From an uncultured Hoeflea sp. (GTDB taxonomy: Bacteria; Pseudomonadota; Alphaproteobacteria; Rhizobiales; Rhizobiaceae): DNA of 64,000 nt. The first letter of the stretch is position 1. Each line of letters begins with the position of its first letter. The position numbers and the translations under genes were made by a program. Shown piece by piece: positions 41,929 to 48,163 of this stretch. Below the pieces are notes generated by a model. The model was not told where the DNA came from. It did not search any database and was given only the letters and a program-made list of their open reading frames with translations. The DNA lies in the NCBI RefSeq assembly GCF_947501405.1, contig NZ_CANMVK010000001.1, forward strand, positions 1,550,001-1,614,000, read 5' to 3'.

Positions 41929-42291
41929 ATGCGCGCCGCCTCCACACTTTGCCTGTTTCTGCTTTTGAGCCTTGCTACGCCCACGTTGGCGCAGACAATT
42001 GGCGGCGAATACAGTGTGGAAGGCGTGGATTTTGACGGCAGCCGCTACAGCGGAACGGCAACGATAGAGATGACCAGTTCCAACACCTGCCGCATTTCCT
42101 GGGAAACCGGCACCAGTTCCACCGGGCTTTGCATGATCTACGGCAATGCCTTTTCGGCCGCCTATGCGATCGATTCCGGCGTCTACGGTCTCCTGGTCTA
42201 TGAAATAAAAGACGATGGTACACTGGACGGCATCTGGACGATCGCCGATACTGCCGGCGCCGGCTCAGAAACCCTCACCCCGATTCGTTAG
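41929..42291 (+). CDS. Small secreted beta-rich protein
   Basis: A 120-residue protein with a signal peptide (1-21, LCLFLLLSLATPTLA with cleavage before QT). The mature 99 residues are predicted beta sheet: TIGGEYSVEGVDFDGSRYSG, TATIEMTSSNTCRISWETG and YGLLVYEIKDDGTLDGIWTI, with two cysteines that may pair. Similar short exported proteins occur in many alphaproteobacteria; I know no assigned function. It stands alone with about 200 bases on each side. Confidence 0.75.
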   Translation: MRAASTLCLFLLLSLATPTLAQTIGGEYSVEGVDFDGSRYSGTATIEMTSSNTCRISWETGTSSTGLCMIYGNAFSAAYAIDSGVYGLLVYEIKDDGTLDGIWTIADTAGAGSETLTPIR

Positions 42292-43105: not shown

Positions 43106-43765
43106 CTACAGAGCGCTGTAAACTCCAAATACCCCGACAAGGATCAGGCTCAACGCCCACACAATGTCCAGGTTGAACCAGGTGCTGGAGAGAAACTTCA
43201 GGCCCAGCCAAAAATAGATGACTGCGGCAATCACGCCGCCGGCAATTGTCATGGCCAGCGTGTGCGCGGTGGCAACCACGAAGGCGGTGACAAGGTTTCC
43301 GGCCATCAGCGCGCCGGCTGCCTGGTGACCCGCATCGAGTTCCTCCAGCTTGCAGATCCCGAGATAGATCGGCACCAGCATCAGGCCTGCGCCGTGGGCC
43401 ATGGCGGCCAGAAACGACCACAGCGCCAGCCGGCTGGGCTTGACGCGGGCCAGAAACCGCGGGTGCCTGCGGTTGATCAGCAGATAGACGCCGAGCGCAA
43501 TCACCAAAAGCCCGGCGCCCAGGCGGATTTCGCGCTCCCAGGCGACCAGCACGGTCATCAGCGAAAACGGCAACAGGATTGCCGTCATCGCCAGGAAATG
43601 GCCGAAGGCGAGCGCCGCCAGCGCCTTGGGCAGCGCACCTATCCTCCGTTCCATCAATGCGGCGGACACCGCCAACGGCCATCCCATACCCGGATTGAGG
43701 CCGTGGTAAAGCCCGGAGACGATGACGGCCCACCAAAGGGCCGTCACGGAGATCATGTCTTGCAT
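43106..43765 (-). CDS. Multi-pass membrane protein downstream of mtoX
   Basis: A 219-residue inner-membrane protein with about six helices. Two helices carry His-Gly motifs (VIVSGLYHGLNPGMGWPLAV and FLAAMAHGAGLMLVPIYLGI), and a third has ATAHTLAMTIAGG. The pattern resembles small metal or anion permeases such as the HupE/UreJ, RcnA and UreH-like groups, but I cannot assign one. It begins 3 bases after mtoX ends, so it is certainly co-transcribed. A role in copper delivery to the oxidase or in export of a reaction product (sulfide, sulfite) is possible; both are inference. Confidence 0.7.
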   Translation of the reverse strand: MQDMISVTALWWAVIVSGLYHGLNPGMGWPLAVSAALMERRIGALPKALAALAFGHFLAMTAILLPFSLMTVLVAWEREIRLGAGLLVIALGVYLLINRRHPRFLARVKPSRLALWSFLAAMAHGAGLMLVPIYLGICKLEELDAGHQAAGALMAGNLVTAFVVATAHTLAMTIAGGVIAAVIYFWLGLKFLSSTWFNLDIVWALSLILVGVFGVYSAL

Positions 43766-43768
43766 GCG

Positions 43769-45169
43769 TCAGACGGACGGATAGCAGAAGCTGTCGGTTG
43801 AACAGTCTCCGCCCTCAAGCCGGATCTGGTGCGCGCGAAGCCCTTTGGGGAACTCGATGTAGAAATCCTTGTCCAGCGTCAGGCCGCCATTCTCACCGAC
43901 ATGGGCCATCACCATCTGGCCGCCCTCGTCATTGGGGTAGAACTGATCATCCCAGGAGGAATAGAGCGAGTTGGTCCAATAGACCCGCTTGCCATCGCGG
44001 CTGATTTCCACCATCTGCGGCCCGAAGGCGAAGTCCTTGCCATTGGGGTGTTTGGTGTCTTTGACGATGCCGCCGATCTCCACCTTGCCGGTGAGTTTCG
44101 GGTTCATCGGATCGCTGACATCATATTGATGCATCTCACCCAGGCCCCAGCAGGCGACGTACAAAAAGCGATCATCGAGGCTCAGATCGATATCGGTGAC
44201 CAACGGCGGCACCGCGCCAAATCCTTTCAAAAGATCCGGCAAATCATCGGGATCGGCGGGAACCGGATCGATGGTGATCGTTTTCTTGGACTGCCATTTT
44301 CCGTCATCATCACGCCACCAGGTGAAGATCGCTCCTTGCAGATTGGTGGTGTCGACTACCACACCGCAAAACCCGTAGGATTTGGAAGGATCATGGGCGG
44401 GGCGGATTTCCAGCGCCATCTGGTATTGATCGCCGAAATCCATGGTCTGGATGTTCTTGCGGGCGCGCAGATCCCAGAAGTGAATCGAGTGGCCGTATTT
44501 GTTGGACAGCAGATCATCGGGCACGATGCCATTTTCGAATTGCGGCGGCAGGCCCCATTCGGAACTGACCATGTAGTCCTGCGGCAGGTTCCACCAGAAA
44601 TCGTAGTGCTTGTCCTGCTTGCCGCGGTCCATCTCGTAACGGCCGATGATGTCGAAGGTCTGACAATCCATGATGAAGATGCCGGGCGGACCATCAGTGC
44701 CATCGGGACCACCGCCACCGAGAGTCGACACATAGATCCCCTCGGGACCGCAATGAATCGTGTGGGGTCTTGAATATCCCGTTTTTTCAAACACTTCTTC
44801 AGGCTCGATGATTTTGTGAATCTTGGCCTTCAAGGGCTCCTTGACGTCGATGATGTAGATTCTCGACGACCGGATCCCCGGCACGATCAGGTAGCGGCGC
44901 TCCAGGAAGGCGTGGCCCGTCAGCGGTGAAAGCGAGGACGAACAGGCGTTCCAGCCAAAATGGTGAAACTCGTCTCCCTTGTGGGGAACGATGACTTGAT
45001 GCACGATCTGGCCGTAAGTCTCTGATTTGGTGTCGAGATCGATGACGGCGATACCATCGGACTGGGTGCCGTCCGGGCTCAACATCACCGTGAAAGCGTA
45101 GTTTTCGACCGGTGCCTGCATGGCAAGTTTCGGCGTGGCGTGGAATGTCGGATCTGGTCTCAGATTCAT
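43769..45169 (-). CDS. mtoX: Methanethiol oxidase (SBP56 / selenium-binding protein family)
   Basis: A 466-residue beta-propeller protein of the SBP56 family. The Hyphomicrobium member is a copper-dependent methanethiol oxidase that yields formaldehyde, H2S and H2O2. Signatures match human SELENBP1 and bacterial MtoX: FHHFGWNACSSSLSP (Cys76), RPHTIHCGPEGIYVSTLG, DFWWNLPQDYMVSSEWG, LSLDDRFLYVACWGLGEMHQ, TNSLYSSWDDQFYPNDEGG and a C-terminal AHQIRLEGGDCSTDSFC. The second cysteine of the animal CSSC motif is serine here. No signal peptide is visible, so the protein looks cytoplasmic. The start at 45167-45169 has AGGAG about 6 bases upstream. It follows the IclR gene on the same strand. Confidence 0.88.
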   Translation of the reverse strand: MNLRPDPTFHATPKLAMQAPVENYAFTVMLSPDGTQSDGIAVIDLDTKSETYGQIVHQVIVPHKGDEFHHFGWNACSSSLSPLTGHAFLERRYLIVPGIRSSRIYIIDVKEPLKAKIHKIIEPEEVFEKTGYSRPHTIHCGPEGIYVSTLGGGGPDGTDGPPGIFIMDCQTFDIIGRYEMDRGKQDKHYDFWWNLPQDYMVSSEWGLPPQFENGIVPDDLLSNKYGHSIHFWDLRARKNIQTMDFGDQYQMALEIRPAHDPSKSYGFCGVVVDTTNLQGAIFTWWRDDDGKWQSKKTITIDPVPADPDDLPDLLKGFGAVPPLVTDIDLSLDDRFLYVACWGLGEMHQYDVSDPMNPKLTGKVEIGGIVKDTKHPNGKDFAFGPQMVEISRDGKRVYWTNSLYSSWDDQFYPNDEGGQMVMAHVGENGGLTLDKDFYIEFPKGLRAHQIRLEGGDCSTDSFCYPSV

Positions 45170-45254
45170 GTCAGTCTCCTCCCGTTTTAAGATCAATCTG
45201 GCGCTGCGGACCCGTCACCGGTTTTACGGTTGCGGATTGCGGGCCGACATCTCC

Positions 45255-46013
45255 TCAAATGTCGGCGACGCTGCACAGCTGAATGGCTCCGCTTATCCTT
45301 TCTGCAAGTTGCATCAGTCTCTGGCCCAGCGCTTCTCGGTACTCCCCGTCAAAGCGGCGGATCGGCCCAACCGCACCAACGCTGAATGTGGCGCCGATGT
45401 TGCCGATCGTCACCGGAGCCGCAACGCTGGCGACGCCGGTGTCGATTTCCTGGTCGCATTCGGCGAACCCACGCTGCACGATGGCTTCGAACTCGGAACG
45501 AAGGGCGTCGGCGGTGGTCTTGGTGTGTTCGGTGTATTGCCTGAGTGCGCCGCTTAAAATCCTGTCCTGGAACTCCGGCTCGGCAAAGGCGGCGATCGCC
45601 TTGGAGCAGGAACAGGCATGCATTGGCCGAGTGCCGAGGCCTGGATAGATGTATGCCCGACCGGGATCGTCGGGTGTTTCCACGTGGATGATTTCCACCT
45701 GACCATTGCGGAACCGGGCCAGGAACATGGTCTCACGGATTTCCACCGCCGCGGATTTAATGAGCGGCGCGGAGGCCCGGCGCACGTCAACATCGGACTT
45801 GCCCAGCAACGCGATGCGGATCAGCCGCTCGCCGATGACGAAACGCGAAGTCCCCTCGGATTCGTCGATCAGCCTGTGCTCCTGAAGGGTCTGCACCAGC
45901 CGGTAACAGGTGGGTTTGGGCAGACCGGTTGCTTTCTGCACCTCGGCAGCCGAAATTGGCCGTCCGGCTACTGCAATCATTTCCAGAATCGCGATAAGCC
46001 GATCAAGATGCAT
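45255..46013 (-). CDS. IclR-family regulator of the C1-sulfur cluster
   Basis: A 252-residue IclR regulator: N-terminal winged helix (LDRLIAILEMIAVAGRPISA, then VQKATGLPKPTCYRLVQTLQ) and a C-terminal effector-binding GAF-like domain with YPGLGTRPMHACSCSKAIAA and DTGVASVAAPVTIGNIGATF. The last residues (AIQLCSVADI) follow the family. It lies upstream of mtoX by 85 bases on the same strand and is divergent from the formaldehyde dehydrogenase gene. This position makes it the likely controller of both arms. The effector is unknown; methanethiol, formaldehyde or a glutathione adduct are candidates. Confidence 0.9.
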   Translation of the reverse strand: MHLDRLIAILEMIAVAGRPISAAEVQKATGLPKPTCYRLVQTLQEHRLIDESEGTSRFVIGERLIRIALLGKSDVDVRRASAPLIKSAAVEIRETMFLARFRNGQVEIIHVETPDDPGRAYIYPGLGTRPMHACSCSKAIAAFAEPEFQDRILSGALRQYTEHTKTTADALRSEFEAIVQRGFAECDQEIDTGVASVAAPVTIGNIGATFSVGAVGPIRRFDGEYREALGQRLMQLAERISGAIQLCSVADI

Positions 46014-46026
46014 GTTGACGGAGCCC

Positions 46027-46061
46027 TATCATATAATGATACTTCGTCTCGAAATATGATA
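46027..46061. promoter_or_regulatory. Inverted repeats between iclR and the formaldehyde dehydrogenase gene
   Basis: TATCAT-ATA-ATGATA (46027-46041) is a perfect 15-base palindrome. Its left part, TATCATAT, pairs again with ATATGATA at 46054-46061. The 94-base divergent gap is AT-rich and holds the promoters for both directions. The 46027-46041 palindrome begins 14 bases upstream of the iclR start codon. A dimeric regulator, most simply the IclR protein, could bind here and control both sides. Confidence 0.6.
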
Positions 46062-46107
46062 GCAAGTCTGCAATGATGCAAGACAAAACTGCGGGAGGTG
46101 GTTGAAG

Positions 46108-47217
46108 ATGCGCACAAGAGCTGCGGTGGCGCTGGAGGCGGGCAAGCCGCTTGAAATCATGGAAGTTGACCTGGACGGACCGCGTGCCGGCGAGGTTCTG
46201 GTGGAAATCAAGGCCACCGGAGTGTGTCACACCGACGAATTCACCCTTTCGGGCGCCGATCCGGAAGGTATCTTCCCTGCCATTCTCGGTCATGAGGGTG
46301 CAGGTGTGGTGGTCGATGTCGGGCCCGGCGTCACATCGCTGAAAAAGGGCGATCATGTCATCCCGCTCTACACGCCCGAGTGCCGCGAGTGCGAGTATTG
46401 CCTCAATCCCAAGACCAATCTGTGCCAGTCGATCCGCTCGACCCAGGGCCAGGGGCTGATGCCGGATGGGAGCTCGCGCTTCTCGCTCGATGGCAAGCCG
46501 ATTTTTCACTATATGGGCACATCGACCTTCGCCAATTTCACAGTGCTTCCGGAAATCGCGCTGGCCAAGATCAATCCCGACGCACCCTTCGACAAGGTCT
46601 GCTACATCGGTTGCGGCGTGACCACCGGCATTGGCGCGGTGATCAACACCGCCAAGGTTGAGATCGGGTCCCGGGCGATCGTTTTCGGACTTGGCGGCAT
46701 CGGATTGAACGTCATCCAGGGGCTGCGTCTGGCGGGCGCGGACCAGATCGTGGGCGTCGACCTCAACCCGTCCAAGAAGGAAATGGCGACCCGGTTCGGG
46801 ATGACAGACTTCGTCAACCCGTCCGAAGTGGAAGGCGATCTGGTTCCCTATCTGGTCGATCTGACCAAGGGCGGCGCGGATTACACCTTTGACGCCACCG
46901 GCAATGTCGGCGTGATGCGTACGGCGCTCGAATGCGCGCACAAGGGCTGGGGTGAATCGATCATCATCGGCGTGGCGCCGGCGGGTGCGGAGATCTCCAC
47001 CCGGCCGTTCCAGCTCGTTACCGGCCGCTCATGGCGCGGCACCGCCTTTGGCGGCGCACGCGGCCGTACCGACGTGCCCAAGATCGTCGACTGGTACATG
47101 CAGGGCAAGATCGAGATCGATCCGATGATCACCCACACCATGGGGCTCGAAGGCATCAATGAAGCCTTCGACCTGATGCACAGGGGTGAAAGCATCCGCA
47201 GCGTCGTCGTCTATTGA
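46108..47217 (+). CDS. S-(hydroxymethyl)glutathione dehydrogenase (class III alcohol dehydrogenase)
   Basis: The 369-residue zinc-dependent class III alcohol dehydrogenase oxidises S-hydroxymethylglutathione, formed spontaneously from formaldehyde and glutathione, to S-formylglutathione. Catalytic zinc ligands are in [12 protein letters not shown] and GHEGAGVV; the structural zinc site is [16 protein letters not shown]. The cofactor loop is [16 protein letters not shown]. The start at 46108 has GGGAGG 9 bases upstream; a TTG two codons earlier is also possible. It is the first gene on the divergent arm, 50 bases ahead of S-formylglutathione hydrolase. The pair forms the standard glutathione route from formaldehyde to formate. 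Confidence 0.93.
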
Positions 47218-47267
47218 CGGCGGCGCAGACCCTGCCCTCCCAACCAATGCAGACCCCGGATGGACCC

Positions 47268-48104
47268 ATGAAAATCGTCTCGGAAGCCAAGGCCCATGGC
47301 GGACGCCAGGGTGTCTACACCATGGACTCCGACGCCTGCGGTTGCGAAATGACCTTTGCGGTCTTCACCCCGCCGCAGGCCAAGGAGCATCTGTGTCCGG
47401 TGGTCTGGTACCTGTCCGGGCTGACCTGCACCCACGCCAATGTCATGGACAAGGGCGAGTACCGGCGGCTCGCCGCCGAGCTGGGACTTATTGTCGCCTG
47501 CCCGGATGCGAGCCCGCGAGGCGACCATGTGCCCGATGAGCCCGACAATTGGCAATTCGGCAAGGGGGCGGGTTTCTATCTCGACGCCACCCAGGATCCC
47601 TGGGCAACGCATTACCGGATGGAGACCCACATTCTGGAGGAACTGCCGGCACTGATTGCCGGACATTTCGCCGCTGATATGGGGCGTCAGGCGATCACCG
47701 GACACTCCATGGGCGGGCACGGCGCGCTCACATTCGCGCTCAAACATCCCGACCGGTTCAAGAGCTGTTCGGCCTTCGCGCCGATCGTGCAGCCATCGAC
47801 AGCGGATTGGTCACGCCCCGCGCTCACCAAATACCTGGGCCTGGATGAAGCGAATTGGCGGCGTCATGACGCCACTCTCCTGATCGCTGATGGTGCGCGG
47901 TTTGGCGAATTTCTAATCGATCAGGGAACCGCCGACGGATTTCTCGACAACGGCCTGAGACCCTGGTTGCTGGAGGATGCCTGCAGCAACGCCGGGATCG
48001 CGCTGACCTTGCGGATGCAGGACGGCTACGACCACTCCTACAATTTCATCTCGAGTTTCATGGATGATCATCTGAATTGGCATGCGAAACGGCTCGCGAG
48101 ATAA
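47268..48104 (+). CDS. fghA: S-formylglutathione hydrolase
   Basis: A 278-residue esterase-D-family serine hydrolase that splits S-formylglutathione into formate and glutathione. The nucleophile is in ITGHSMGGHGALTFALKHP, the oxyanion region in WYLSGLTCTHANVM, and the catalytic His in DGYDHSYNFISSFM near the C-terminus. The start at 47268 (MKIVSEAKAHGGRQGVYT) is the family N-terminus; a methionine seven codons upstream is in frame. It is the second gene of a two-gene unit with the dehydrogenase and is followed by a terminator. Together with mtoX this closes a path from methanethiol to formate. Confidence 0.93.
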   Translation: MKIVSEAKAHGGRQGVYTMDSDACGCEMTFAVFTPPQAKEHLCPVVWYLSGLTCTHANVMDKGEYRRLAAELGLIVACPDASPRGDHVPDEPDNWQFGKGAGFYLDATQDPWATHYRMETHILEELPALIAGHFAADMGRQAITGHSMGGHGALTFALKHPDRFKSCSAFAPIVQPSTADWSRPALTKYLGLDEANWRRHDATLLIADGARFGEFLIDQGTADGFLDNGLRPWLLEDACSNAGIALTLRMQDGYDHSYNFISSFMDDHLNWHAKRLAR

Positions 48105-48138: not shown

Positions 48139-48163
48139 CCGGGCCATCGAGCCCGGCATTTTT
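48139..48163 (+). terminator. Rho-independent terminator after fghA
   Basis: CCGGGC and GCCCGG form a 6-base-pair stem with a CATCGA loop, followed by CATTTTT. It lies 35 bases after the fghA stop and ends the two-gene unit. Confidence 0.8.

Follow-up and report, generated by a model that had tools for sequence, protein, structure and literature searches.

Methanethiol is a main product of dimethylsulfoniopropionate (DMSP) demethylation, and to our knowledge little is known of how bacteria sense methanethiol or handle the formaldehyde released from it. A close precedent in print for the locus described here is the predicted operon SPOA0268-0272 of Ruegeria pomeroyi, in which SPOA0268 encodes an IclR-family regulator and both SPOA0268 and the methanethiol oxidase gene mtoX are reported to be induced by methanethiol (PMC5739008). 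On the R. pomeroyi megaplasmid the order is IclR, mtoX, SCO, cytochrome c peroxidase (MauG-like) and glutathione-dependent formaldehyde dehydrogenase (GS-FDH, or FDH), which makes SPOA0272, by position, the GS-FDH. We analysed a 64,000-nucleotide stretch of an uncultured Hoeflea sp. (contig NZ_CANMVK010000001.1, positions 1,550,001 to 1,614,000), here called the window. In it, genes for a membrane protein (MEM), an SBP56-family oxidase (also mtoX below) and an IclR-family regulator stand divergent from those for GS-FDH and S-formylglutathione hydrolase (FGH). We lean slightly toward reading this locus as a methanethiol-oxidation unit beside the genome's sole glutathione-dependent formaldehyde pathway, with an IclR operator shared between them.

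As in R. pomeroyi, the IclR gene lies directly upstream of the SBP56 oxidase gene and GS-FDH belongs to the same run of genes. The R. pomeroyi operon differs in that its SBP56 protein is of another clade (about 26% identical), SCO1 and MauG stand where the window has MEM, and FDH lies downstream on the same strand, whereas that of the window is divergent. Its palindrome is only weakly like the window's, the inverted repeat being TCTCACATT-N17-AATGTGAGA as read by eye. The original prediction knew of no description of the arrangement as a regulated unit; the methanethiol-induced R. pomeroyi operon comes close to one. Three features are new relative to the text of the open-access literature searched (figures and supplements aside): SBP56 and MEM form a constant pair, the palindrome is conserved, and a non-canonical oxidase occurs with a divergent FDH. 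The locus offers a regulator clade, a candidate operator defined as 35 bp of sequence and, for the oxidase, a constant membrane partner that has no name as yet; all three can be tested in marine laboratory strains.

In the proposed mechanism, a cytoplasmic, copper-dependent SBP56 enzyme would oxidise methanethiol to formaldehyde and sulfane sulfur, and FDH and FGH would convert the formaldehyde to formate. The iclR, mtoX and MEM genes would form one transcript, and MEM would be a dedicated membrane partner of the oxidase. IclR would bind the 35-bp palindrome at 46027-46061, overlapping both putative divergent promoters, and in this way would govern the operon it belongs to and, probably, FDH-FGH, the signal being methanethiol or a product of it. 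The sequences themselves establish the gene identities, the constant mtoX-MEM pairing and the conservation of the palindrome ahead of close IclR relatives; enzyme activity, co-transcription, binding, the effector, the direction of control and the role of MEM are inferred from them.

Gene content and layout

The locus was read from the window sequence, and gene families were scored against Pfam and NCBIfam models. The order from left to right is MEM (-), SBP56 oxidase (-), IclR (-), GS-FDH (+) and FGH (+), with the following features.

43106..43765, minus strand: MEM, a 219-aa multi-helix membrane protein of unassigned family, constant neighbour of this SBP56 branch
43769..45169, minus strand: SBP56-family thiol/methanethiol oxidase of the cluster-1 (RlMTO-like) type by its motifs, 466 aa, with Cys 76/140/456 and copper-site residues conserved
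45255..46013, minus strand: IclR-family regulator, a relative of R. pomeroyi SPOA0268 (43% identity)
46027..46061, no strand: 35-bp palindromic candidate operator, with perfect 9-bp arms at 46026-46034 and 46054-46062
46036..46065, minus strand: promoter-like site toward iclR-mtoX-MEM (TTGCTA-18-TATCAT; consensus match only)
46015..46043, plus strand: promoter-like site toward FDH-FGH (TTGACG-17-GATACT; consensus match only)
46108..47217, plus strand: glutathione-dependent formaldehyde dehydrogenase (class III alcohol dehydrogenase), the sole place in the genome over the family cut-off
47268..48104, plus strand: S-formylglutathione hydrolase, likewise the sole place over the family cut-off
48139..48156, plus strand: terminator-like hairpin 3' of FGH (consensus match only; 3 in the region against 4.3 in shuffles)

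The oxidase scored 574 bits against PF05694 (cut-off 34), the regulator 67 bits against PF01614 (IclR_C; cut-off 24) and 47.9 bits against PF09339 (HTH_IclR; cut-off 22), GS-FDH 623.9 bits against TIGR02818 (cut-off 543.95) and FGH 429 bits against TIGR02821 (cut-off 281.7). These scores and the layout bear out the divergent block of SBP56, IclR, formaldehyde dehydrogenase and formylglutathione hydrolase genes that had been predicted. The interval given for it, 43106..48104, holds all of the genes named but also takes in MEM, which had been left unnamed. Sequence and family alignments place the likely starts of SBP56, FDH and FGH at ATG 45169, ATG 46108 and ATG 47268, respectively, which differ from those of the longest open reading frames. 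The window's own 4.45-Mb genome has one SBP56 gene, one place over the cut-off of the FDH model (that of the window, with 15 weaker places below it) and one over the cut-off of the FGH model, again the window's.

The oxidase and its membrane partner

Relatives of the locus were taken as the best 80 of at least 560 confirmed candidate stretches from one scan of a named genome collection. Counts of MtoX, MEM, IclR, FDH and FGH come from tblastn. The order of neighbouring genes was read with a simple caller of our own, which missed or mis-sized mtoX in L028, L030 and L078 and MEM in several loci. MEM was found downstream of mtoX in all 80 relatives. The gap between them was 0-17 bp in 77 relatives, 195 bp in two and 73 bp in the remaining one, and MtoX and MEM distances were correlated across these loci (Mantel r 0.75, 0 of 999 permutations). 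In a sample of 385 genomes of the class, SBP56 was present in 32 and MEM in 14. These 14 are exactly the genomes with an SBP56 of at least 55% identity, MEM always lying within about 140 bp of it; the 18 others, where SBP56 identity is 46% or less, gave no MEM match. Among plasmids, SBP56 lay within 316 bp of MEM in 31 of 33 MEM records; the other two are from Agrobacterium larrymoorei, and one of them was inspected. Record names place the pair also in Gammaproteobacteria, Burkholderiaceae and an actinomycete. Judged from these counts, the constant unit of the locus is SBP56 plus MEM.

On A. larrymoorei pTiAF3.44 (L206, 2110-4675), only the last 102 residues of SBP56 are left, next to an ISL3 transposase, and MEM still adjoins them.

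MEM had no match in Pfam or NCBIfam at E 0.001, and searches for a related family, a PDB sequence or a convincing fold likewise gave nothing, a CcdA-like fold being among the known folds considered. Six residues are invariant in 58 MEM sequences (H21, H56, H124, H168, M27 and M129). Ten proteins scanned between 41043 and 49648 gave no match to SCO1/SenC or MauG, whose genes adjoin mtoX in the canonical operon. Our first guess is that MEM may supply copper to the oxidase.

The window's oxidase missed the cut-off of the canonical MtoX equivalog NF052453 (127.4 bits against 650). Its motifs GWNACS, HTIHC and GGDCST hold cysteines at 76, 140 and 456. Three-cysteine motifs are reported for the Rhodobacteraceae 'cluster 1' methanethiol oxidases, RlMTO and RdMTO, and cysteines of the same numbers, 76, 140 and 456, were mutated in RlMTO (PMC10936201). 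The window's SBP56 protein is a cluster-1 (RlMTO-like) type oxidase by its cysteine motifs and, by its score, not a canonical MtoX, which suggests that screens relying on canonical mtoX alone would overlook this branch. The words IclR and operon are absent from the main text of the cluster-1 paper, and its passages on these enzymes describe no membrane partner or neighbourhood (PMC10936201). Six residues reported as needed in human SELENBP1 (H73, H74, H137, H140, D189 and E252; PMC10362175) have counterparts in the window's protein at H69, H70, H136, H139, D190 and E254, invariant in five aligned sequences; they were matched by motif context without alignment to the human protein, D190 and E254 resting on position. 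The only solved relative found by sequence was 2ECE, a selenium-binding protein of Sulfolobus tokodaii that matches over nearly the full length (E 6e-166) and in whose alignment the GGDCS cysteine is an alanine.

The low score against the MtoX model and the roughly 26% identity to R. pomeroyi MtoX would also fit an enzyme that oxidises thiols or sulfur and naturally acts on something other than methanethiol. Human SELENBP1, for its part, is reported to accept several thiols (PMC10362175), and a DmdA-family gene was not called in the stretches of 68 of the 80 relatives. We nevertheless judge a different substrate quite improbable: two enzymes of its cluster, RlMTO and RdMTO, are reported to consume methanethiol in vitro (PMC10936201), the cysteines and copper-site residues are conserved in the window's protein, and DMSP demethylation genes adjoin the loci of some relatives. 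The original prediction had methanethiol oxidised to formaldehyde, sulfide and peroxide. Its methanethiol-to-formate course is retained here, but the by-products need revision, as HSSH exceeding H2S and no H2O2 are reported for the cluster-1 enzymes; formaldehyde itself was measured with RpMTO, and for the other enzymes it is a proposed product (PMC10936201).

DMSP demethylation genes

DmdA-family genes were called at 12 of the 80 relative loci, with membership scored by NCBIfam at 3 of the 12 and by Pfam GCV_T at 2, and based on clustering and alignment at the others. The three DmdA-like proteins scored by NCBIfam (cut-off 410) lay over it in L072 (693 bits) and just under it in L031 and L049 (370 and 382 bits). 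In L031, acyl-CoA ligase, enoyl-CoA hydratase, OsmC-like, DmdA-like and AsnC-cluster genes lie beyond FDH, IclR, mtoX and MEM, the AsnC family of that gene cluster having been checked on its L041 member. Two DmdA places over the cut-off, and one at 371 bits, occur in the window's own genome; across the genus, DmdA exceeded the cut-off in 5 of 15 genomes searched.

DmdA-like, OsmC-like and enoyl-CoA hydratase genes were seen near mtoX-MEM in L030, L031, L046 and L049, and likewise in L048, where no OsmC-like gene was called. An acyl-CoA ligase gene was near the pair in L030, L031, L048 and L049.

The palindrome ahead of the regulator gene

In 14 of the 80 relatives the gene directly before mtoX encodes a close IclR (69-74% identity); L059 has a 26% identical IclR some 4 kb away from mtoX, a weak match that was left out of the counts. 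In 18 loci, namely those of the 14 relatives, the window and three genomes of the genus (G001, G002 and G010), the palindrome stops 5-13 bp short of the IclR start codon. When loci were left out one at a time, with the four genus loci left out together, it was recovered every time (18 of 18), scoring 17.6-37.7 bits; at no locus did any of 500 dinucleotide shuffles reach its score. A 19th close relative outside the model (G312, locus L166) gave 29.0 bits at 13 bp before the start, with 0 of 500 shuffles as good. The shared ancestry of related loci survives such shuffling; the genes beyond the palindrome site differ. Among the 66 relatives without a close IclR, a hit above 8 bits occurred in 6, the best at 13.6 bits. 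A search of four genus genomes for the 25-base core, with at most 2 mismatches, found the IclR/FDH site in each (on both strands in G002) and one further place, in G002, while a backward control pattern gave 2 hits. In the window, promoter-like sites of both directions overlap the palindrome. We regard 46027-46061, within the promoter region that IclR and FDH share, as a conserved candidate operator.

The 13.6-bit hit lies at 8767-8801 of L028, about 230 bp upstream of mtoX at a locus with no close IclR.

The regulator and its distribution

In the 385-genome sample an IclR match at E 1e-35 was obtained in 5 genomes. Four of these regulators are at least 43% identical to the window's (the own genome, G000, together with G312, G391 and G273) and each lies beside SBP56, the partners falling by identity into three branches (89-100%, 41% and 32%). 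G440, the fifth genome (33%), lies outside the 32 with SBP56. Among 61 relative genomes, 6 had a match at E 1e-40. It stands beside mtoX and FDH in G000 and G001 and beside a 43% identical SBP56 in G054. In G048 it stands beside a distant SBP56 with FDH near, so that FGH, FDH, SBP56 and IclR form one run; G002 and G010 are considered below. Plasmids gave two IclR hits at E 1e-30, one of them the R. pomeroyi megaplasmid. The window's regulator has 43% identity to SPOA0268 and a shared neighbourhood, and may likewise respond to methanethiol.

Possible control of the formaldehyde genes

The original prediction suggested that an IclR protein couples the toxic product to its removal, within a neighbourhood of mtoX, iclR, formaldehyde dehydrogenase and fghA genes that should be conserved. 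GS-FDH (76-86% identity) is divergent at 5 of the 80 relatives, and all are loci with a close IclR: FDH is divergent to IclR at 5 of 14 such loci and at 0 of 66 without one, a distribution expected about 1 time in 12,000 by chance if kinship and unequal stretch lengths are ignored. At L036 and L040 the stretch breaks off no more than 450 bp upstream of IclR, which leaves FDH out of view, and the other stretches differ in length; a 29% identical alcohol dehydrogenase in L079 is a weak match and was left out of the counts. FGH was near mtoX in 0 of 80 relatives, as far as the stretches reach, and by its distribution FGH adjacency is a genus feature. Joint control of both arms through IclR is plausible, with the conserved candidate operator as the main evidence, although FDH is linked in so few relatives.

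Several further observations, like this low count, weigh against the proposed mechanism. In another family, of which 41 genomes were searched and 38 gave a match, none of 30 FDH loci had this IclR alongside, and IclR stands beside FDH without mtoX in G002 and G010. Within the genus DmdA does not track mtoX, G001 having mtoX without DmdA over the cut-off and G003, G009, G012 and G014 having DmdA without an mtoX match. The promoter matches are barely above shuffles (3 against 1.6). With six distant IclR genes (37-59% identity) the palindrome matrix does well only in part: in the IclR direction, the shuffles as good out of 500 numbered 0 in L141 (G048), 3 in L140 (G054), 3 in L187 (G391), 14 in L200 (R. 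pomeroyi), 16 in L201 (Phaeobacter inhibens) and 38 in L181 (G273), and in a both-strand palindrome test the shuffles out of 1000 numbered 0 in L140, 0 in L141, 2 in L201 and 29 in L200. The palindrome also precedes IclR genes with a non-FDH divergent neighbour and so may serve autoregulation alone. Finally, FDH and FGH occur once each, and simple tight repression of them would expose the cells to formaldehyde, which makes it unlikely; activation, a second promoter or an effector linked to formaldehyde would be needed.

Some of these points lend substance to a narrower account, in which IclR controls only iclR-mtoX-MEM through the palindrome and the block arrived next to FDH-FGH genes of housekeeping function. 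Being single over-cut-off places in the genome, FDH and FGH do look like housekeeping genes. They stand beside a helix-turn-helix (HTH) gene without IclR, mtoX or MEM in five inspected genus genomes (G003, G006, G011, G015 and G017) and are therefore independent of these three. The same site holds FDH with IclR only in G002 and G010 (FGH of G002 was found by tblastn) and all of the genes in G000 and G001. Across same-genus genomes, own included, mtoX occurs in 2 of 18 and the close IclR in 4 of 18. The narrower account is a real possibility, if not the one we expect. It sits poorly with the confinement of divergent GS-FDH to loci with a close IclR, with the GS-FDH that ends the R. pomeroyi mtoX operon and with the single run of genes in G048. 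It is also at odds with the retention of IclR beside FDH in the two mtoX-free genomes, G002 and G010, where nonsynonymous (dN) and synonymous (dS) divergence between the two copies are 0.089 and 0.69; such purifying selection indicates that IclR has work without mtoX. In those two genomes (loci L138 and L139) IclR and a near-perfect palindrome lie beside FDH with neither mtoX nor MEM, which hints that the effector may be formaldehyde-linked.

A bolder joint reading is one that we consider somewhat unlikely as a whole. MEM would found a new membrane-protein family serving only cytoplasmic SBP56 oxidases, and would probably import copper, filling the place of SCO1 in canonical mtoX operons; four histidines and two methionines are invariant in its 58 sequences. 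The IclR clade would be a dedicated methanethiol sensor reused with three SBP56 branches, and the palindrome would wire formaldehyde removal to methanethiol oxidation.

Other observations

In the window, a small protein at 41929-42291 matched the LIC10280 family at 46.7 bits, short of the cut-off of 100. On P. inhibens plasmid pP30_b (L201), another SBP56 type (39%) is divergent from a 44% identical IclR and is followed by 2Fe-2S, CoA-binding, rhodanese-like, MBL-fold, enoyl-CoA hydratase and acyl-CoA synthetase genes, a run that would fit sulfane sulfur handling.

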